DNA of 47,541 nt from Clostridiaceae bacterium (GTDB lineage Bacteria; Bacillota; Clostridia; Saccharofermentanales; Fastidiosipilaceae): the NCBI GenBank assembly GCA_012520525.1, contig JAAYOA010000037.1, forward strand, positions 1 to 47,541. Direction: 5' to 3'. Under the pieces are notes generated by a model that saw only the letters and a program-made list of their open reading frames with translations, was not told where the DNA came from and did no database searches. A program made the position numbers and the translations under genes. Positions 3,818-14,267 of the stretch are shown here, in pieces (position 1 is the stretch's first letter; every line of letters begins with the position of its first letter).

Positions 3818-4519
3818 ATGGATTTATCACCGCTCTGGATTTCAATGAAAATTGCACTGTGCGCGACGGTAGTCACGTTGATTTTTGGTGTGCTGGCGGC
3901 GTGGTGTGTTTTTCGAATGCGACGCGGTTGGCAAATACTGGATGGTTTATTTACGTTGCCTATGGTGTTGCCTCCGACTGTCGTGGGTTTTGGCTTGCTC
4001 GTTATTTTTGGTCGCAACAGTGGCTTGGGCAGGTGGCTGGAGTCGGTGGGATTGCCCGTTGTGTTCACATGGTACGGTGCTGTGATTGCAGCTTCCGTCG
4101 TTGCCTTTCCTTTACTTTACAGAGCGACTCGAGGTGCCTTTGAGCAGCTGGACCCAGACCTCATTGCCTGTGCCCGCACGTTAGGAATGACGGAGTGGCA
4201 AATTTTTCATAAGATTCTGATACCCAATGCTTGGCCCGGTATTCTTTCCGGTGTTGTACTCTCTTTTGCCCGTTCGATGGGGGAATTCGGTGCCACGACA
4301 CTGATTGCCGGCAATATTCCCGGGCGCACCCAGACGATGGCGTTGGCTATTTATAGTGCTGTTCAGAACAACAAAAAGACATTGGCTACTCGCTGGTCTT
4401 TGATTATTATGGTTATTTCTTTTGTAGCTATCTTTTTAATGAATTTAACTTTGAAAGAACGCAAGACAGCACATTGCTACAATAAATGTGGAGAGAAACA
4501 GCGGGAGATGACACCATGA
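3818..4519 (+). CDS. modB: Molybdate ABC transporter permease ModB
   Basis: This is the membrane permease of the molybdate importer, with 233 residues and about five hydrophobic segments. The permease EAA loop that contacts ModC is visible as CARTLGMTEWQIFHKILIPN, around residues 115-134. FARSMGEFGATTLIAGNIPG, around residues 149-168, is typical of ModB. The ATG at 3818 has an AAGGAATTAGG ribosome binding site. The 138-base gap after modA has no clear terminator. The gene overlaps modC by the sequence ATGA. Confidence 0.94.
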   Translation: MDLSPLWISMKIALCATVVTLIFGVLAAWCVFRMRRGWQILDGLFTLPMVLPPTVVGFGLLVIFGRNSGLGRWLESVGLPVVFTWYGAVIAASVVAFPLLYRATRGAFEQLDPDLIACARTLGMTEWQIFHKILIPNAWPGILSGVVLSFARSMGEFGATTLIAGNIPGRTQTMALAIYSAVQNNKKTLATRWSLIIMVISFVAIFLMNLTLKERKTAHCYNKCGEKQREMTP

Positions 4520-5616
4520 AGCTGGAGGTAAAGATCACTAAGCGCCTTAAAAATTTCGTCTTAGATGTGGATTTTATTCACGAACAAGGCGTCCTGGGTC
4601 TTTTAGGTCATTCGGGCTGCGGCAAGAGCATGACTTTAAAATGCCTAGCTGGCATCGAGACCCCCGACAGAGGCAGAATCGTCTTAAATGACAAGGTATT
4701 ATTTGATTCAAATTTAGGTATCAATCTAAAGCCACGTCAGCGCAAAGTAGGTTATCTGTTTCAGCGCTATGTTCTATTTCCAAATATGACGGTGCGGGAA
4801 AATATTCTTGCCGGAATGTTGGCACGACAAGTTGAGGACAAAGAGCAGATTGTGGATAGCTATATTCAGCATATGTATTTACAGGGGCTTGAAGATCAGT
4901 ACCCTTATCAATTATCGGGCGGTGAACAGCAGCGCGTCGCTCTAGCTCGCATGTTGGTAACGAATCCAGAGGTTCTGCTTCTCGACGAACCCTTTTCGGC
5001 CCTTGATACTTTTTTAAAACAACAGATGGAACATGCGATGTTTGATCTTTTTGACCGTTATGGCGGCGGTGTCATCTATGTGACCCACAACCGGGATGAA
5101 ATCAATCGATTTTGTGATTGGGTCGCCGTAATGGAACAGGGGTCTGTCGTGGAATTATTGTCAAAACGAGATTTATTTGAAAGACCTGTCCATTTGTCAA
5201 CGGCAAAATTATCCGGCTGTAAAAACTTTTCAAAGGCAACAGTTGTACAGAAATCCGGTTCAATTGATGAAGAACATCCCTCCGGTGGTCGCGTTCAAGC
5301 CCTAGATTGGGGAACGGAGTTAACCGTTTCAGGCATACTACCTGCTGAAACAAACTATATAGGTGTAAGGGCTCACTATATTCAACTGAGCAAAGAAAAG
5401 ACAGCTAACAGTATTCCTGTCCGACCGGTGAGGGTAATCGAAAATCTATTTGAAACATCTGTTATCTGTTGTCCTATAAATATTGAATTTAATAGTAGAC
5501 CAGAAAATATTATTCAAATTGATCTTGAACCTAGGATCTGGCGATCCTTTAATTCAATGTCGCAATTTTGGCTTAAAATAGATCCAGAGGTAATTATGCC
5601 TCTTCAGTCAACTTAA
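4516..5616 (+). CDS. modC: Molybdate ABC transporter ATP-binding protein ModC
   Basis: This is the cytoplasmic ATPase driving molybdate uptake. Walker A is GHSGCGKS (31-38), the ABC signature LSGGEQQ is near 133-139, Walker B is VLLLDEPFSALD near 154-165, and the H-loop reads VTHNRDE. The C-terminal third (about 230-366) is a weakly conserved TOBE/Mop-like regulatory region (GVRAHYIQL). The ATG at 4516 overlaps the modB stop (ATGA), so translation is coupled. A longer reading from 4486 adds ten residues without better support. Length is 366 residues, normal for ModC. Confidence 0.94.
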   Translation: MKLEVKITKRLKNFVLDVDFIHEQGVLGLLGHSGCGKSMTLKCLAGIETPDRGRIVLNDKVLFDSNLGINLKPRQRKVGYLFQRYVLFPNMTVRENILAGMLARQVEDKEQIVDSYIQHMYLQGLEDQYPYQLSGGEQQRVALARMLVTNPEVLLLDEPFSALDTFLKQQMEHAMFDLFDRYGGGVIYVTHNRDEINRFCDWVAVMEQGSVVELLSKRDLFERPVHLSTAKLSGCKNFSKATVVQKSGSIDEEHPSGGRVQALDWGTELTVSGILPAETNYIGVRAHYIQLSKEKTANSIPVRPVRVIENLFETSVICCPINIEFNSRPENIIQIDLEPRIWRSFNSMSQFWLKIDPEVIMPLQST

Positions 5617-5646
5617 AATGAATACTTAAATGAGAGAGGTCAAGCC

Positions 5647-6654
5647 TTGAAAATTAGAACTTATATCATAACAGTGAGCGATAAAGGTGCCCGTGGTGAG
5701 CGAGAAGATGTGACAGGACCGAAACTTAAAGATATGTTGGTGCAAGATGTCTATGAGGTTGTGGGACATGAAATCCTTCCCGATGAATATAGACTAATCG
5801 TCGACAAACTCTGTGAGTTGGCGGACGGCGGAGATGTTGATCTTATTTTAACCAATGGCGGTACCGGTTTCTCTCCCCGGGATGTGACGCCAGAAGCTAC
5901 TTTAGAGGTGGTTGATCGGCGAGTTCCGGGCATTCCCGAAGCGATGCGGCAGGCTTCCTTGGTCATCACACCCATGGCTGTGTTGAGTCGCAGTGAAGCG
6001 GGGATTAGGAAACGAACTTTAATCGTAAATCTACCTGGCAGTCCCAAGGCTGCCACTGAGAATTTGGCGGCGGTGATCGCCGCTCTGCCCCACGGCATCG
6101 AAGTTATGAGAGGGGAAGTTGGTGACTGTGCCGAACCTGTAGTAAACGAACCTGTGGTGAACGAAGTGGCCAATGCCGTTGCAGAAGCTGCCCTGACAGC
6201 CGATGTGGCTGCAGCTATCAAGGGCGTTGTCGTCGCCGTGAACGTCAGTGAGCGAAAAGGGACGACTAAAAAAGAAGTTGAGTCAATCCTCTTACGACCC
6301 GACTGGGGGATCGAAGGCGATGCCCATGCTGGTAATTGGCATCGTCAAGTAAGCTTGTTGGCGGAGGAAAGCATAGATATTATGCGCGCCCAAACAGATA
6401 TGGATTTGGAAAATGGTATTTTTGCTGAAAACATAAATACTCGAGGGATTGATCTCAAGTCGTTGCCGATCGGCACTCGATTGGCTGTCGGATCTGCAAT
6501 TTTAGAAGTCACTCAAATTGGCAAAGAGTGCCACGACGGAGGCTGTGCCGTCATGCGGGCAGTCGGCCATTGTATTATGCCGCGGGAAGGTATTTTTGCG
6601 AAAACGATTCAAGGGGGCACGGTGCGGGCAGGTGATCCCATCCATATTATCTAG
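5647..6654 (+). CDS. MogA/MoaB-domain and MOSC-domain fusion protein
   Basis: This is a two-domain protein of 335 residues. Residues 1-160 form a Mog/MoaB domain (TVSDKGARGER near the start, then TNGGTGFSPRDVTPEAT), expected to adenylylate molybdopterin. Residues about 196-335 form a MOSC domain with IEGDAHAGNWHRQVS and a Cys-rich GKECHDGGCAVM followed by CIMPREGIFAKTI. MOSC domains handle sulfur on molybdenum cofactors. The linker (about 162-195) contains a small PVVNE duplication. The start is TTG at 5647, chosen for the GAGAGG ribosome binding site; no better ATG exists. It closes the block, 30 bases after modC. Confidence 0.9.
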   Translation: MKIRTYIITVSDKGARGEREDVTGPKLKDMLVQDVYEVVGHEILPDEYRLIVDKLCELADGGDVDLILTNGGTGFSPRDVTPEATLEVVDRRVPGIPEAMRQASLVITPMAVLSRSEAGIRKRTLIVNLPGSPKAATENLAAVIAALPHGIEVMRGEVGDCAEPVVNEPVVNEVANAVAEAALTADVAAAIKGVVVAVNVSERKGTTKKEVESILLRPDWGIEGDAHAGNWHRQVSLLAEESIDIMRAQTDMDLENGIFAENINTRGIDLKSLPIGTRLAVGSAILEVTQIGKECHDGGCAVMRAVGHCIMPREGIFAKTIQGGTVRAGDPIHII

Positions 6655-6941: not shown

Positions 6942-7979
6942 CTAGATCGATTCTCTCAAATTATATGAATTATAAATATCAATATGGGTGAAGTGGTTCT
7001 CTTGCTCTGGTTTAATTCCGCTGATAATATAATCTATTAGTATATTTACTGGCTTCACAGCCTGAGTTTTTGCACCTTGGTCAACAATAAAATCAATCAA
7101 CCCATTTTTTAGATTAACGATATTTTCGGGTACTAGATCGTGGCAGATCATGTGTACTTGATCGCCGATACCGAGTTCTTTTACGGCATCACATGTTCCT
7201 AGCTGACCATTTGCAGTGTTATATATACCTTGCAGGTCAGGTTGTTCTTGAAATGCTTTTTTTACAAGTTCGCGGGCTATATCTCTCTTATCTTGACAGG
7301 CCACGACGGGAAGTAATTCGATGTCTTTGAAGACATTTTTTATTTCGTGACGAAATCCTTCTACACGGCGTTGGTGGGAGATGCTGTTGTGGTAACCTGT
7401 AACGATTAAAACTTTACCTTTGCCACAGAGCAGACCATTCATCAAACTGGCGCAAGCTCTGCCACTTTGATAGTTATTTTGACCCACATAACATAATCGC
7501 ATCGAATCAGGCAGGTCGGTATTGAATGTGACGACGGGAATATTCTCTTCTTTTAATTTATTGATTTTTTGGACGACCCGATGGTCTTGTATGGGTGCCA
7601 AAGAAATGCCGTCTACGCCTTCTTTATACAACTCATCTAAGGCCTGCAGCTGTTTCTTTAAATCAAGTTGCTCGTTTGTATAGAGGATCAATTCGGCACC
7701 ATTATTTTTAATCTCCTCGCGCGCTGCCTCGATCTCTGAAAGAATTTTTTGAATGAATGGTGTTTCCGTCGATTGAATGATGACACCTAACTTTAATGGT
7801 CGGTGGGTGCGGACAAGCATTGAGCCGGCTCGATTAGGCTGATAACCTAATTCTTCGGCAATGGCTAAGATGCGTTCGGCGACTTCTTGTTTGACCGGTC
7901 CACTTTTATTAAGTGCTCGGTGCACTGTGCCGCGCGAAACGCCGGCTAAATCGGCAATTTGTTGCTGGGTAACAGCCAT
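6942..7979 (-). CDS. LacI-family transcriptional regulator
   Basis: This is a sugar-responsive regulator. The N-terminal LacI helix-turn-helix is at residues 4-24 (TQQQIADLAGVSRGTVHRAL), followed by the hinge region and a periplasmic-binding-protein-like effector domain to residue 345. I chose the ATG at 7979 because an AGTAGG sequence lies six bases upstream. ATG at 7985 and a longer form from 8021 are possible. It diverges from the dehydrogenase/binding-protein/isomerase operon, which it probably controls through the operator-like palindrome at 8315-8330. The GTVHRALN recognition-helix variant is common among regulators next to Gfo/Idh and sugar isomerase genes. The effector is unknown. Confidence 0.9.
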   Translation of the reverse strand: MAVTQQQIADLAGVSRGTVHRALNKSGPVKQEVAERILAIAEELGYQPNRAGSMLVRTHRPLKLGVIIQSTETPFIQKILSEIEAAREEIKNNGAELILYTNEQLDLKKQLQALDELYKEGVDGISLAPIQDHRVVQKINKLKEENIPVVTFNTDLPDSMRLCYVGQNNYQSGRACASLMNGLLCGKGKVLIVTGYHNSISHQRRVEGFRHEIKNVFKDIELLPVVACQDKRDIARELVKKAFQEQPDLQGIYNTANGQLGTCDAVKELGIGDQVHMICHDLVPENIVNLKNGLIDFIVDQGAKTQAVKPVNILIDYIISGIKPEQENHFTHIDIYNSYNLRESI

Positions 7980-8043
7980 AAACATCCTACTCTCTGTGAG
8001 AAATATATCAAGATCGAGCACAATTATATGTGTTCAATAATAT

Positions 8044-8314: not shown

Positions 8315-8345
8315 GTGTTCACGTGTACACTTGTGTTAATATAAC
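8315..8345 (+). promoter_or_regulatory. Promoter with LacI-type operator for the dehydrogenase operon
   Basis: GTGTTCACGTGTACAC (8315-8330) is palindromic at seven of eight base pairs with a central CG, the usual form of LacI-family operators. It overlaps a possible -35 (TTCACG, 8318-8323) that is 16 bases before a -10 TATAAC (8340-8345). Repressor bound here would block RNA polymerase. The match is by pattern, not by a known regulon. Confidence 0.55.
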
Positions 8346-8401
8346 ATTAAAGTAGTTAAAACCCATTAGTGAGCAGCATGAGCTGCAAAAGGAGCTACAG
8401 T

Positions 8402-9415
8402 ATGGATGTTTTAAAAGTAGGTGTCATTGGTTGTGGTGCGATTGGTCGCGAACATATTAAACGTTTACACAACAAATTACAGGGCAGCCGCGTTGTCGCT
8501 GTCATGGACGTGTTCCCAGAGAGTGCCCAGAGAGGTGCTGATTTGGTCGGTAGCGATTGCAAGATTTATGACAATATTGAAGGCATCGTTAACGATTCAG
8601 ATGTCGATGCATTGGTTGTAACAACCCCTGGTTTTGCTCACAAAGAGCCGATTATGGCGGCAATTAAGGCGGGCAAACCTGTGTTTAGTGAGAAACCTTT
8701 GGCCACGACAGCAGCCGATTGTAAAGAAATTGTCGATGCTGAAATGGCGGGCGGTAAAAAACTTGTACAAGTTGGCTTTATGCGTCGCTATGACAAGGGT
8801 TATCGTCAAGTTAAAGAATTGCTCGACGGCGGCACCTTTGGTAAACCTCTGTTGGCAAAATGTACTCACAGGGCAATTTCGGTAGATCCGTCTTATACGA
8901 CAGACATGGCTGTTACAGACACAGCTATTCATGAGATTGATTGTATGCATTGGCTGCTCGATGATGATTGGACACAAGTTCAAGTAATCATGGGTGCAGA
9001 TACTAAACATGCCCATGAAGGTCTCAAAGATCCCCAGATCATGATCTTCAAATCTAAAAAAGGTTATACAGTTATCCTTGAAGTTTATGTCAACAGTAAC
9101 TTCGGTTATGACATTAACTGTGAAGTGGTCTGTGAAGAGGGCGTCATCAATCTCCCCGCACCGGCATATCCCACAGTTCGTAAGAATCAAATGATCTCAA
9201 CACCGATTGAACAAGACTGGATTAATCGCTTTATTGATTCCTACGATGTTGAATTACAGGAATGGATTGATGATACGAAGAAGGGTGAAGTCAACGGACC
9301 GAGCGCATGGGACGGTTATATCGCAGCTGTTACAGCAGATGGTTTAGTCGCATCTCAGACGAGCGGTGTCATGGAAGATGTATCTGTAGGTGAAACCCCT
9401 GAATTCTATCGTTAA
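8402..9415 (+). CDS. Gfo/Idh/MocA oxidoreductase, inositol 2-dehydrogenase-like
   Basis: This is an NAD(P)-dependent dehydrogenase of the Gfo/Idh/MocA family. The Rossmann motif GVIGCGAIGREH is at residues 7-18 and the EKPL motif (VFSEKPLATT) is near residue 97. The C-terminal part contains the family's substrate-side DTAIHEIDCMHWLL stretch. At 337 residues it has the length of IolG (myo-inositol 2-dehydrogenase), which is its closest familiar relative. I take the ATG at 8402, preceded by AAGGAG, over a GTG at 8369. It is the first gene of an operon with a sugar-binding protein and an isomerase. The substrate could be inositol, another cyclitol or a sugar. Confidence 0.88.
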   Translation: MDVLKVGVIGCGAIGREHIKRLHNKLQGSRVVAVMDVFPESAQRGADLVGSDCKIYDNIEGIVNDSDVDALVVTTPGFAHKEPIMAAIKAGKPVFSEKPLATTAADCKEIVDAEMAGGKKLVQVGFMRRYDKGYRQVKELLDGGTFGKPLLAKCTHRAISVDPSYTTDMAVTDTAIHEIDCMHWLLDDDWTQVQVIMGADTKHAHEGLKDPQIMIFKSKKGYTVILEVYVNSNFGYDINCEVVCEEGVINLPAPAYPTVRKNQMISTPIEQDWINRFIDSYDVELQEWIDDTKKGEVNGPSAWDGYIAAVTADGLVASQTSGVMEDVSVGETPEFYR

Positions 9416-9435
9416 TACAAGTTACTATGATTTCA

Positions 9436-9477
9436 TGACCTGGTGATCCGGCGAGGACAGCGCTGGATGTCAGGTTA
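9436..9477 (+). other. Intercistronic hairpin before the sugar-binding protein gene
   Basis: TGACCTG (9436-9442) pairs with CAGGTTA (9471-9477) with one G-T pair. Inner pairings ATCC/GGAT and GGCG/CGCT extend the stem across a small internal loop. No T run follows, so it is more likely a processing or mRNA-stability element than a terminator. Such elements often raise the level of the binding-protein mRNA relative to its neighbours. Confidence 0.45.
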
Positions 9478-9541
9478 AGAAATATATTTGGAAAGGTGAC
9501 TTTGAGTCACACACACTGAATAGAGGAAATTGGAGGATAAA

Positions 9542-10633
9542 ATGAAAAAATTTCTAGCTATTATGTTATCGGCTGTTATGGCAGTCGGTCTGGCCGTCGG
9601 ATGTGGCGGCGGTGACAGCGGTGATGCTGAAGAAACGACAGCAGCAACAGAGGCAGGTGCAGATGCTGATGCAGACGCAGGTACAGATGCTGATGCAGAC
9701 GCAGGTGCAGACGCTGGTGCTGCTAGCGCAGACGATGCAGTCGCTGACAGTCTCGGTGAAGTTAAAGCCAACGGCTCTTACAAGATCGGTTTCACGATCT
9801 CTGCTCGTGACCAGTTCTTGTCTGCCATGGAGGCTGCTGCTGATGAGCAAGCAAAAGCCATGGGCGTTGAAATGACAGTTGTTGACGCTAATAACAATGC
9901 TAATACACAGATTCAAAACGTTCAGACCTTTGCAAGCCAAGGTGTCGATGCGATCATCGTTAATCTGGTTAACTCCGATAACATGGAGCAAATCATGAGC
10001 TCTGCAGGCGATATTCCAGTTGTATTCGTTAACCGTAAACCGTCCGGTGAACTGGAGGCTGGCAAGGCCACTTACGTTGGTTCTGACGAAAACAACTCTG
10101 GTCGCTATCAGGGCGAATTCCTTGCTGAACATTTTAAAGGTGAAGGTAAAGAAGAAATAGACGTTGTTCTGCTCCAAGGTATTTTGGGTCTGCAGCACAC
10201 CATTCTACGTACAGAGTCCGCGAAAAAGGCTCTCGAAGACAACGGCATCAAAGCTAACATTATTTACGAAGATACTGCAGAGTTTGACCGTGCCAAGGCT
10301 CAGAATAAAATGCAGACCTTCTTGGGTACGAACCAGTCCTTTGACTGTGTCATCGCCAACAATGACGAAATGGCTCTCGGTGCAATCGAAGCTATGAAAT
10401 CTGCTGGTCTTGATCCGAAGGAAATCCCCGTTGTTGGTATCGATGCTACGCCCGCCGGTTTGACCGCTATGGACAATGGCGAACTCATGTTCACCGTCTT
10501 CCAGAATCCGGTTGGTCAAGGTGCTGGTGCTGTCCGTGCCGCTGTTCTCTTTGCTAACGGCGATGATGTTGACACCGTTGTTGACATTCCGTTCGAGCCT
10601 GTTTCAATGGACAACTACAAAGACTATATGTAA
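9542..10633 (+). CDS. Sugar ABC transporter substrate-binding lipoprotein
   Basis: This is an extracellular lipoprotein that binds a sugar or cyclitol. The signal peptide ends in LAVGC with the lipid-anchored Cys at residue 21. A low-complexity Ala/Asp-rich linker (about 24-66) follows, then a periplasmic-binding-protein domain of the ribose/galactose/inositol type (IGFTISARDQFLSAMEAAADEQ.. and VVGIDATPAGLTAMDNG). The ATG at 9542 follows GGAGGATAAA; a TTG at 9530 would include the ribosome binding site in the gene. It has 363 residues. No permease or ATPase gene is adjacent, so it must work with a transporter encoded elsewhere or act as a sensor. Confidence 0.9.
   Translation: MKKFLAIMLSAVMAVGLAVGCGGGDSGDAEETTAATEAGADADADAGTDADADAGADAGAASADDAVADSLGEVKANGSYKIGFTISARDQFLSAMEAAADEQAKAMGVEMTVVDANNNANTQIQNVQTFASQGVDAIIVNLVNSDNMEQIMSSAGDIPVVFVNRKPSGELEAGKATYVGSDENNSGRYQGEFLAEHFKGEGKEEIDVVLLQGILGLQHTILRTESAKKALEDNGIKANIIYEDTAEFDRAKAQNKMQTFLGTNQSFDCVIANNDEMALGAIEAMKSAGLDPKEIPVVGIDATPAGLTAMDNGELMFTVFQNPVGQGAGAVRAAVLFANGDDVDTVVDIPFEPVSMDNYKDYM
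9653..9712 (+). repeat. 24-bp tandem repeat, 2.5 copies, in the lipoprotein linker
   Basis: Units at 9653-9676 and 9677-9700 differ at one base, and a half unit follows at 9701-9712. Each unit encodes AGADADAD-type residues of the linker between the lipid anchor and the binding domain. Copy number probably changes by slippage and would alter linker length without a frameshift, since the unit is eight codons. Confidence 0.85.
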
Positions 10634-10686
10634 TTCATATGCATTAAAACTACATAAAATTCTAAAGTAAGGGCAACAATTAATTA

Positions 10687-10702
10687 GCGCCAACTTTGGC
10701 GC
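10687..10702 (+). other. Short GC-rich hairpin upstream of the isomerase gene
   Basis: GCGCCA (10687-10692) and TGGCGC (10697-10702) form a 6-bp stem with an ACTT loop, 20 bases before the isomerase start codon and just upstream of its ribosome binding site. There is no T run. It may tune translation or mRNA decay. Confidence 0.35.
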
Positions 10703-10722
10703 AGAGAATGTGAGAGGTAAAT

Positions 10723-11586
10723 ATGAAAATTGGATTTAACGAAGGCTGCAATCGCTTTTGTGCAGACCATTCAGTCTTAAAAGACCTAGAGTATTGTGAG
10801 AAGTACGGTTTTGATTACATTGATGTCCAGTCAGAGTGTTTGAATCGTGATCTGGAAGCTGGAAAGTATACGATCGAAGAGCTGGGTGAGTGGTTCAAAA
10901 ATCATAATTTAAAAATGCTCTCTTACAATGCCCTTATTTTCTTCAATATGAAACAGACGCAGGAAGAGAAAGATGCGGTCATGGAAGAGTTGGATGAAAT
11001 CATCCGCCGCTGCAACATTCTTGGTTGCAAAATGATCGTTGTCGTACCTTCTATGGACCTTGATGTTCATGCAACAGTTGCTGAAATCAGAGAAGATGCA
11101 GTTGCTGTATTGAAAGAAATGGTCAAGAAGGTCGAACCGCACGGCATCAAGCTGTCCCTTGAGTTCTGTGGTGCTCCCAGCATGTCGATTAACCGCTTCG
11201 ACTACGCTTATGACATTGTCAAAGAAGTTGATAGCCCGTTGGTTGGTATTACTCTGGATCAGTATCATTTCCACGCAATGGCATCAACGTGGGAAAAACT
11301 CGAGCAAGCCGACGGTGACAAGATCTTTGTATGGCACCTGAATGGTATGGAAGATATGCCCTGTGGCGCACCTTACAACACAGATGAAAAGCGTCTGTGG
11401 CCGGGCGCCGAAGGTGACATCCTCGATCACCAGCGTTTTGCTGATACATTGAAGAAAATTGGCTTTAAAGGCGATGTCATCACAATCGAAGTGTTCCGTC
11501 CGGAATATTACGAAATGACACAAGAGGACAACGTTAAAAAAGCTGCAGAAGTTACTAAAGCTCATGTCGAGAAATATATCAGCTAA
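10723..11586 (+). CDS. Sugar phosphate isomerase/epimerase family protein (TIM barrel)
   Basis: This 287-residue protein is an AP-endonuclease-2-type TIM barrel of the IolE/IolH/IolI and xylose-isomerase-like group. Family signs are KIGFNEGCNRF at the N terminus, DYIDVQSE near residue 33, LSLEFCG near residue 145, GITLDQYHFHAM near residue 175, and a late Glu/His-rich region (WHLNGMED, ITIEVFRPEYY) expected to bind a divalent metal. Acidic and histidine ligands appear intact. It follows the binding-protein gene with an AGAGG ribosome binding site and ends before a strong terminator. Likely roles are isomerisation of an inosose or keto-sugar made by the dehydrogenase; the exact reaction is not readable. 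Confidence 0.85.
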   Translation: MKIGFNEGCNRFCADHSVLKDLEYCEKYGFDYIDVQSECLNRDLEAGKYTIEELGEWFKNHNLKMLSYNALIFFNMKQTQEEKDAVMEELDEIIRRCNILGCKMIVVVPSMDLDVHATVAEIREDAVAVLKEMVKKVEPHGIKLSLEFCGAPSMSINRFDYAYDIVKEVDSPLVGITLDQYHFHAMASTWEKLEQADGDKIFVWHLNGMEDMPCGAPYNTDEKRLWPGAEGDILDHQRFADTLKKIGFKGDVITIEVFRPEYYEMTQEDNVKKAAEVTKAHVEKYIS

Positions 11587-11632
11587 TTGATGTAGGTTCT
11601 TGCTCGCGCTTATTTAGGTCTATAAATGACAT

Positions 11633-11668
11633 AAAACCCGGAAAGCATAGTGCTTTCCGGGTTTTTAT
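11633..11668 (+). terminator. Intrinsic terminator of the dehydrogenase-binding protein-isomerase operon
   Basis: A 15-bp perfect stem (11633-11647 with 11651-11665), a 3-nt TAG loop and a run of five T at 11662-11666. It lies 47 bases after the isomerase stop codon. Confidence 0.92.
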
Positions 11669-11980
11669 ATAAAGTTGCAGTCGTTTCTAGTTCTTGAAAA
11701 GAAGATCAGACCTCTTTGTTCATGGAGAAAAAAATTTATAATCATTTATTAAACAAAAATAGCAAGATTTATGAAAAAATAGTTTAACTAACCTATTCAT
11801 GTAGTCATCTAGCTAACTTACAATAAAGGCAACTAGAAGAAACCCATATCGTCAATCGACCTATTTATAATTTATTAGTAATTAAATAAATTTATATGCT
11901 GGTTAATAAAATAGCAGTACTTGTTATTGGACGCAGTATCTTGTTTCAGCAATCGATTAACTAATTTAGGAGGAGCAAAA
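11669..11980. other. AT-rich intergenic region, no gene seen
   Basis: About 310 bases of strongly AT-rich sequence lie between the terminator and the second dehydrogenase. I found no coding frame with a ribosome binding site and no convincing -35/-10 pair, although several TATAAT-like stretches exist. The promoter of the next gene is expected here, since a strong terminator separates it from the preceding operon. Confidence 0.5.
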
Positions 11981-13159
11981 ATGTTGAATGGTGAGAAAAA
12001 AATAGCAAAACCTTATCGTTGGGCAATGATCGGCGGCGGCCGTACAGGCGGCGTTGGATATAAACATCGTCTGGGGGCGCTGCGTGACAATACGGCATTT
12101 GAACTTGTTGCAGGTGCTTTTGATATTGATCCCGAGCGCGGCAAAGACTTTGGCGTCAATTTGGGCGTCGACCCGGATCGCTGCTATCCCGATTATCAGA
12201 CCATGTTAAAGGAAGAGGCCAAACGCGAAGATGGTATTCAAGTAGTGAGTATCGCCACACCGAATGCCACCCACTTTGAAATTACAAAGGCTGTTCTCGA
12301 AGCCGGTCTGCACGTAGTCTGTGAGAAGCCCCTTTTCTTTGAAGAAGAGGAAGGCGAAATTATTCGCGAGCTGGCAAAAAAACAGAATAAAATTGTCGGA
12401 GTTACATTCGGTTTCTCCGGTAATCCTATGCTGTTACAAATGCGCAGTATGGTAGAAAATGGTGAATTGGGCGACATCCATATGGTCGAACTGCAATACA
12501 CCCACGGCTATGCCTGTGATGAACTGGGCGACACAAACACACCAAGCCAGAAATGGCGTGTAGATCCCAAGATTGCAGGAAGAACCTTCGTCCTTGGCGA
12601 CCTATCTACCCACACCTTCTACATGAGCCAATTAATTCTGCCTAATATGAAGATCGAAAAGTTGCTCTGTGATCGCCAAAGCTTTGTCAAGAGCCGGGCA
12701 CCCCTGGAAGATAATGCCTATGTTATCATGCACTACAAAAACGGTGCGGTAGGCAGAATGTGGACCTCTGCTGTAGATGCTGGTCGGATGGACGGACATC
12801 GCATTCGTATAGTTGGTTCTAAAGCAAGTGTCGAATATAATGATGCCCTAGGAAATCAACTGCGCTATGAGGTACAGGGTGAGCCGTCACGTATTCTCTG
12901 GCGCGGTACAGACTATCTCTCAGATGATTGTTTAGCTTACGAAAGACTAGGCGTATTGCATCAAGAAGGATTGGCTGAAGCTTGGTCAAATATCTACCTA
13001 AAATTTGCCATCGCTATGGATGCCAAGGATCGTGGTGACCAAGAGACTTTGGATAATTTAGTCTATCCTGATTTGGATCACGGCATTGAAGCCATCCGCT
13101 GGGTCAATCGTTGTGCAGAGTCTGCCGACAAAGGATCCGTCTGGGTCAATTGGGATTAA
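11981..13159 (+). CDS. Second Gfo/Idh/MocA family oxidoreductase
   Basis: This is a 392-residue NAD(P)-dependent dehydrogenase. The nucleotide-binding motif is AMIGGGRTGGVGYKHRLGAL (about 15-34) and the family motif CEKPLFF is near residue 115. It is about 55 residues longer than the first dehydrogenase in this window and belongs to the subfamily with a GAFDIDPER-type segment after the first strand. The ATG at 11981 is preceded by TAGGAGGAGC; an upstream start at 11921 would place that ribosome binding site inside the gene. It stands alone between terminators and is convergent with an AraC-type gene. The substrate is unknown, but proximity to the isomerase operon suggests a related sugar. Confidence 0.88.
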   Translation: MLNGEKKIAKPYRWAMIGGGRTGGVGYKHRLGALRDNTAFELVAGAFDIDPERGKDFGVNLGVDPDRCYPDYQTMLKEEAKREDGIQVVSIATPNATHFEITKAVLEAGLHVVCEKPLFFEEEEGEIIRELAKKQNKIVGVTFGFSGNPMLLQMRSMVENGELGDIHMVELQYTHGYACDELGDTNTPSQKWRVDPKIAGRTFVLGDLSTHTFYMSQLILPNMKIEKLLCDRQSFVKSRAPLEDNAYVIMHYKNGAVGRMWTSAVDAGRMDGHRIRIVGSKASVEYNDALGNQLRYEVQGEPSRILWRGTDYLSDDCLAYERLGVLHQEGLAEAWSNIYLKFAIAMDAKDRGDQETLDNLVYPDLDHGIEAIRWVNRCAESADKGSVWVNWD

Positions 13160-13351: not shown

Positions 13352-14197
13352 TTAGATCACAACGCGTCTAAACTGCAATGGAGTCATGCCGGTTCGGCGG
13401 GTAAACAGTTGGGAGAAGCTAGAGGGATTCTCATAACCTAAATTAAAGGCTATGTCTGCCACAGAATGATCTGTGGTGCGCAGCCATTCCGCTGCCTTGT
13501 TGACACGCAGGCGGATGAGGAAATTAGCGGGCGTATCCCCTGTTTCTTGTTTAAATTTACGGCTGAAATAGAATGGGCTGAGATCAACTGAAGCGGCGAT
13601 GTCGTGGATAGAAATGGGTTTTTCGATATTTGCTTTCATAAAGCGAATGGCCTTTGCGGACATTGAGTTGCCCTGCAGAAGCAGAGGTTTTTTATGCCTT
13701 ACAGCCAAATAAGACAGACAGTTATATATATTCTGACTGATGCCTATGGGATCATCGCCGACACCACTGACCAAGAGATTGATCTGTCCTTGCATCTGGG
13801 AGGCTACTTTGCTATTGAAAAGATTATTAAATAAGATGCCGCCGTTCTCGGCAATCAACCAGTCGGTTAAACGATGTACGTTTTGTCCGTTGATATGATA
13901 ATACAGGAATTCTGCTTGATCGATGGGATGATACTTATGGGGGTAATTACAGTTCAATAGAATTGCGTCGCCGGTTTGAGCGGTCGCTTCATATTTTTCC
14001 TGGCGAAACTTCATCTTGCCCCGGACGATATAACAAATTAAGACATCGGCAAAGTAATCCCTTTCAATCTGATAATTGGTGTCGCAGTAATAATGACCGC
14101 ACCACGTTATATAGTATAGATGCTCTACTGTATCCATAGTTGGTGTCAAAAAAATACGTTGCGATTTTGGTTTTAATCCTTTTTCTAGAATTGTCAA
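13352..14197 (-). CDS. AraC-family transcriptional regulator
   Basis: This regulator has an N-terminal AraC-type cupin-like ligand domain and a C-terminal double helix-turn-helix (about the last 95 residues: ISIHDIAASVDLSPFYFSRK, then VADIAFNLGYENPSSFSQLF, then RRTGMTPLQFRR). I take the TTG at 14197 as start because AGGTGA lies seven bases upstream, giving 281 residues. A TTG at 14230 would add 11 residues but has no ribosome binding site. It is convergent with the second dehydrogenase and divergent from ctsR. Like other family members it probably activates a sugar-use gene. The target is not evident from the sequence. Confidence 0.88.
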   Translation of the reverse strand: MTILEKGLKPKSQRIFLTPTMDTVEHLYYITWCGHYYCDTNYQIERDYFADVLICYIVRGKMKFRQEKYEATAQTGDAILLNCNYPHKYHPIDQAEFLYYHINGQNVHRLTDWLIAENGGILFNNLFNSKVASQMQGQINLLVSGVGDDPIGISQNIYNCLSYLAVRHKKPLLLQGNSMSAKAIRFMKANIEKPISIHDIAASVDLSPFYFSRKFKQETGDTPANFLIRLRVNKAAEWLRTTDHSVADIAFNLGYENPSSFSQLFTRRTGMTPLQFRRVVI

Positions 14198-14267
14198 TTT
14201 GCAGTCACCTGCCTTCCCATGCGGTTTCAAAAGACACAGAAGTTAACAAAAATTTAATACCTATAAG

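Follow-up and report, generated by a model that had tools for sequence, protein, structure and literature searches.

In the window (i.e., the whole stretch of 47,541 nucleotides analysed here), the six genes of Table 1 were all confirmed from their open reading frames and Pfam matches, and the starts of the first and second dehydrogenase genes were placed at 8402 and 11981, respectively, on the basis of ribosome-binding sites. The gene content proposed by an initial annotation made from the sequence stands, except that the AraC-family gene lies outside the interval then given for the block (which begins exactly at the 16-bp palindrome, at 8315) and is convergent with the second dehydrogenase gene. 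The LacI-family gene diverges from iolG, the binding-protein gene and iolI, which are separated by 126 bp (iolG to binding protein) and 89 bp (binding protein to iolI), as measured between ORF ends. Since a strong terminator-like stem, together with an AT-rich stretch of about 300 bp, lies between the isomerase and the second dehydrogenase, these two genes apparently belong to two transcription units; the scan lists the stem (11633–11665) on the minus strand, and on the plus strand the stem itself ends in a run of T. Judged from sequence, the block looks like a three-gene operon (iolG, the binding-protein gene and iolI), next to which the further dehydrogenase gene forms a unit of its own. As had been announced, neither a permease nor an ATPase gene is found within the block (open reading frames and Pfam). 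Elsewhere in the window (3818–6654), the translations read as genes resembling a molybdate ABC permease and ATPase, then a MogA/MOSC-like fusion.

Table 1. Features of the block and its immediate surroundings (window coordinates).
Feature	Position	Strand	Basis and remarks
LacI-family regulator	6942..8021	-	Pfam LacI and Peripla_BP_4; probable start near 7979
Predicted operator GTGTTCACGTGTACAC	8315..8330		Even 16-bp palindrome, central CG
IolG-type inositol dehydrogenase (Gfo/Idh/MocA)	8402..9415	+	Best PDB 3mz0; Pfam
CUT2-type substrate-binding lipoprotein, predicted inositol binder	9542..10633	+	Peripla_BP_4; best PDB 4yo7
IolI-type inosose isomerase, AP_endonuc_2 TIM barrel	10723..11586	+	Best PDB 1i60
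Terminator-like stem, end of the iolG-binding protein-iolI operon	11633..11665		15 pairs, 7 G-C
Second, longer Gfo/Idh/MocA dehydrogenase, predicted inositol-isomer dehydrogenase	11981..13159	+	Best PDB 7d5m/7d5n
AraC-family regulator, convergent with the second dehydrogenase	13352..14230	-	ORF and Pfam

Among solved structures, the first dehydrogenase is closest to inositol 2-dehydrogenase/D-chiro-inositol 3-dehydrogenase (3mz0, 379 bits), and its top matches are entries of a single enzyme (374–379 bits) covering the whole protein. Both this inositol dehydrogenase and IolI (1i60, discussed below) are presumably B. subtilis proteins. With the NCBIfam equivalog model for the bifunctional IolG (NF052679), the protein scores 460 bits, i.e., under the cut-off of 540, and we therefore name it IolG-type without equating it with the NCBI equivalog. 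The IolG groups are distinguished in section 7 of PMC9603128 by motifs including a Lys-Asp-His triad, an acidic residue at position 35, GF(M/N)RR(Y/F)D and Y233-G-Y235. In our alignment, the first dehydrogenase keeps the triad (K99, D174, H178) and the NAD+ aspartate (D37), all numbered by reading from 8399, the lysine and the histidine being conserved in 51/51 sequences, D174 in 49/51 and D37 in 50/51. GFMRRYD is present and the equivalent of Y235 is kept, with Y233 replaced by F; the marker of group ii, a basic residue at position 235 typical of the scyllo group, is absent. Under the scheme set out in that section of PMC9603128, the protein thus resembles the NAD+ myo/D-chiro group of IolG.

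The TIM barrel matches IolI (1i60) from end to end (1–287) with 217 bits, against 36 bits for the next solved protein. Residues E147, D179, H205 and E256, aligned to what we take to be the metal-ligand positions of 1i60, are conserved in 74, 75, 75 and 74 of 75 sequences, respectively (the window protein and the 74 of its 78 relatives that are over 200 aa). It is predicted to be an IolI-type inosose isomerase, and together IolG and IolI should feed both myo- and D-chiro-inositol into scyllo-inosose.

The best solved match of the binding lipoprotein is 4yo7, whose ligand we take to be myo-inositol; a literature search found no paper on 4yo7 or on the 7d5m enzyme. On contig C18 of the same genome lies a complete CUT2 operon, in which the genes for binding protein, ATPase and permease are followed, in this order, by one for a TIM barrel (c4 family, described below). 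The C18 binding protein is 67% identical to that of the window, for which the other best matches in the compared set reach 39–46%. Among the 12 PF02653 permease matches of the genome, the one on C18 is the nearest to the iolI-flanking permease of other genomes (47% identity), while the C18 ATPase shares 65% identity with its counterpart in the sets adjoining iolG-iolI in relatives; both families adjoin iolG-iolI in other Clostridia. Given this operon, with its 67% identical binding protein and its related ATPase and permease, a matching transporter exists in the genome, and the window lipoprotein probably serves it as a duplicated receptor. Contig C18 starts 24 nt before the binding-protein gene, with the promoter off the contig. 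That some bacteria keep inositol transporter genes apart from the iol cluster is stated in a passage of PMC9430895. On contig C135 (L114:1435–2919), a CUT2 ATPase gene is broken by one in-frame TAA, possibly reflecting a pseudogene or an assembly error; as read from the sequence, it adjoins a binding protein, a permease and a gene resembling xylose isomerase.

IolB, IolC, IolD, IolE and a further IolG were sought in the same assembly (92.7% complete, 165 contigs). Genes for a second IolG (450 bits, cut-off 355), IolD (891 bits, cut-off 715) and IolE (408 bits, cut-off 290) are grouped on contig C100, and no IolC (best 184 vs. 300) or IolB (two weak paralogues at 86 and 83 vs. 205) is above cut-off in the genome. 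The best IolC match (184 bits) fits a fructokinase equally well. Kinase and IolB-like proteins of C3, C101 and C161 were not accepted as IolC or IolB: the one on C3 scores equally as a fructokinase and adjoins galE and corA, and the IolB-like ones are far below cut-off. With iolD, iolE and iolG2 on C100, no IolC above cut-off and only weak IolB paralogues, the canonical arrangement, in which one cluster unites iolB, iolC, iolD and iolE with iolG, is rejected as well, and the initial annotation was right in holding that the block is not a standard one.

The comparison set consisted of 78 loci in other genomes, obtained from one scan and carrying the isomerase at 50–87% identity, which were surveyed by tblastn with fixed thresholds and without gene calling. 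The IolG type of the window occurs in 35/78 loci (in 34 of these within 2.6 kb of iolI) and the other IolG type in 10/78; neither is above threshold in 33/78, in a set where 13/78 loci are under 8 kb. A LacI homologue was detected in 47/78 loci, IolE in 6, IolD in 5 and an IolB-like protein in 5. Transporters are of several kinds (SSS symporter: 20 loci; CUT2 permease: 12; GPH symporter: 6), with 35/78 loci having one or more of the three and 43/78 none. The isomerase was detected in seven of the 148 genomes searched, among which that of the window is counted, but not in any of the 11 listed genomes of the same family, yet its best match elsewhere, in Butyricicoccus, is 87% identical, which makes a horizontal spread of the gene likely.

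The C18 TIM barrel (L112:3982–4866) is 74% identical to the c4 proteins that adjoin iolI in relatives. This uncharacterised and highly conserved AP_endonuc_2 TIM-barrel family is often found beside iolI, sometimes between iolI and iolD; it occurs in 16/78 loci by tblastn, and at ≤1.5 kb from iolI in 14/78. It has no match in NCBIfam or among solved structures, and its predicted structure (mean pLDDT 61) was deemed of insufficient quality for a fold search. It is a candidate for an extra inosose isomerase, epimerase or dehydratase.

The GTGTTCACGTGTACAC palindrome was first spotted in the window, whereas the looser consensus GYGTTCWCGTGWACRC was written afterwards with the relatives in view. 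At ≤1 mismatch, GYGTTCWCGTGWACRC yields 42 sites in 31/78 related loci (1.14 Mb in total), a count inflated by kinship among loci, compared to 0 sites for the reversed pattern and 0 or 1 for twelve permuted palindromes. Sorted by neighbour, with double counting possible, these sites lie next to iolG (27), lacI (8), a CUT2 binding protein (4), SSS (3), GPH (3) or other genes (5). The GTGTTCACGTGTACAC of the window is the sole perfect or strong site of its own genome, the other matches being weak and at the control rate; no second strong operator was found in the contigs, which include only 24 nt upstream of the C18 operon. In Butyricicoccus, two operator copies precede a CUT2 binding-protein gene at each of two loci (L086:1331–1485 and L020:5542–5696), which supports the co-regulation of the transporter with iolG-iolI there. 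As for the LacI-family protein, its relatives at 48–55% identity are encoded near iolG or transporter genes, and we predict an inositol-responsive repressor. According to part of PMC4052901, the LacI family includes seven groups for inositol, named IolR, and the typical site is an even palindrome centred on CG.

The second dehydrogenase is closest to 7d5m/7d5n (528 bits), followed by 3dty (504 bits), 7d5m being presumably an Azotobacter “inositol dehydrogenase homologue”. Matches at E ≤ 1e-40 occur in 27/148 genomes searched (own included), and the neighbourhoods of six relatives were examined. A 70% relative has LacI genes, an IolG and the ATPase and permease of a CUT2 system as neighbours (L159); a 65% relative is found with LacI, a full CUT2 set and a further 313-aa ORF (L160); a third one, at 53% identity, is clustered with an IolB-like protein, IolE and IolD (L164). 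Such neighbourhoods, with iol and CUT2 genes, link the family to inositol without fixing its substrate. The remaining three relatives (L161–L163) are grouped with relatives of an IolE-like TIM barrel and of an AraC gene that lie on contig C65 (L115) of the window's own genome, together with a 54% paralogue of the second dehydrogenase (the TIM barrel scores 168 vs. 290 bits as IolE); paralogue, TIM barrel and AraC gene thus form a recurring separate cassette (C65, L161–L163). The second dehydrogenase is not part of the conserved iolG-iolI core, as tblastn detected it beside none of the related isomerase genes (0/78 loci).

Altogether, we regard the block as a LacI-controlled inositol entry module, with a probability of roughly 0.83. 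With iolG-iolI as its entry module, the pathway is a scattered one, of which the chemistry is known and the layout unusual, with an orphan receptor and both the transporter and the lower pathway encoded elsewhere. Inositol would be captured by the binding lipoprotein and taken up by means of a CUT2 ATPase and permease whose genes lie outside the block, with C18 as the most likely location. Based on sequence, conserved residues and the B. subtilis pathway, IolG would use NAD+ to oxidise both myo-inositol, giving scyllo-inosose, and D-chiro-inositol, giving 1-keto-D-chiro-inositol, which IolI would then turn into scyllo-inosose. The latter would be dehydrated and ring-opened by IolE and IolD, for which the genes are present on C100. 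The LacI-family protein may repress the operon through 8315–8330 until inositol or a keto-inositol binds to it. The weakest step concerns the second dehydrogenase, which, as its own unit by the AraC gene, probably oxidises a further isomer, e.g., scyllo-inositol.

The initial annotation had hesitated between inositol and glycosides. The inositol half is favoured by the IolG and IolI types, the iol genes of C100 and the CUT2 set of C18, and iol genes adjoin relatives of all three enzymes. In the glycoside half, a Gfo/Idh enzyme would make a 3-keto-glycoside, the TIM barrel would eliminate the aglycone and the second dehydrogenase would reduce the product. The enzymes do belong to the same superfamilies, and both dehydrogenases weakly match DgpA and glycoside 3-dehydrogenase models, but these matches are marginal (23–66 bits, vs. 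379–528 for the best solved matches). Identity with glycoside/disaccharide 3-dehydrogenase (BT_2158/BT_2159; 35–51 and 23–40 bits vs. cut-offs of 750/650) was rejected, and so was identity with DgpA (only 66 and 60 bits for the first and second dehydrogenase, respectively). Moreover, IolI is the only solved protein that the TIM barrel matches strongly, the block has no recognised glycosidase gene and the neighbours of relatives include iol genes, all of which makes this reading extremely improbable. The initial annotation had itself named close matches of all three enzymes to a characterised inositol or sugar pathway, with the transporter elsewhere in the same regulon, as evidence against its proposal; much of this was found, as for two of the three the match is to a characterised inositol enzyme, and the genome encodes a transporter elsewhere.

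Other readings keep the inositol chemistry and change its purpose or its substrate. IolG and IolI might interconvert isomers instead of supporting growth, turning myo-inositol into D-chiro- or scyllo-inositol to provide a compatible solute or a lipid head group: the pair is reversible and yields D-chiro-inositol from myo-inositol in IolE-defective B. subtilis, as related in a passage of PMC3176187, and no IolC is above cut-off. Nevertheless, IolE and IolD exceed their cut-offs on C100, while the binding lipoprotein and the LacI-type regulator in the operon point to uptake and use, so that we judge interconversion very improbable. That another cyclitol (pinitol, an amino-inositol or some inositol derivative) is taken up and oxidised, the second dehydrogenase being specific to it, seems very improbable too. 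In favour of this reading, the family of the second dehydrogenase has no verified substrate, and its C65 paralogue is paired with an IolE-like protein (168/290 bits). Against it, nothing specific to derivatives, such as a demethylase or an aminotransferase gene, was recognised beside the second dehydrogenase, and the specificity markers of IolG fit plain inositols.

The preferred reading, i.e., an inositol entry module, removes a proposed unusual glycoside pathway and provides an example of inositol catabolism scattered over one genome. Going further, iolG-iolI might, together with a LacI repressor of its own and a transporter that can be exchanged (SSS, GPH or CUT2), form a portable D-chiro-inositol entry cassette that spread between gut and digester Clostridia and is marked by GYGTTCWCGTGWACRC, while the c4 and second-dehydrogenase families would extend the pathway to further inositol isomers; this broader idea is tentative, and we are inclined to doubt it more than to accept it. 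The operator and the gene pair could serve as a marker in the search for Clostridia that may use D-chiro-inositol, a point of relevance to inositol isomers in the diet.

With respect to known systems, the family of the window binding protein and the C18 ATPase and permease are like those of CUT2 transporters of the Mgl/Rbs type, whereas the window operon, unlike such sets, holds the binding protein only. In Anaerostipes rhamnosivorans, which converts chiro-inositol, three consecutive genes (AR1Y2_1057–1059) for a dehydrogenase, an enzyme predicted to isomerise inosose and a putative transporter lie apart from several other iol genes, although the authors tie the use of chiro-inositol to another dehydrogenase copy, AR1Y2_0342 (PMC8355322, in part). 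As far as this description goes, and likened by description only, our block similarly combines a dehydrogenase, an isomerase and, for transport, a binding-protein gene away from other iol genes. In B. subtilis, IolG and IolI form the published D-chiro-inositol route, with IolE and IolD acting next (from a part of PMC3176187). IolG and IolI of the window have their best solved matches in this system, with the catalytic and metal residues kept and the same reactions predicted; unlike in B. subtilis, iolE, iolD and iolG2 are on another contig, the regulator is of the LacI type and the operon includes an ABC binding protein. Finally, with respect to the LacI-family IolR regulons, the 16-bp site of the window, an even palindrome with a central CG, fits the form given as typical in PMC4052901.
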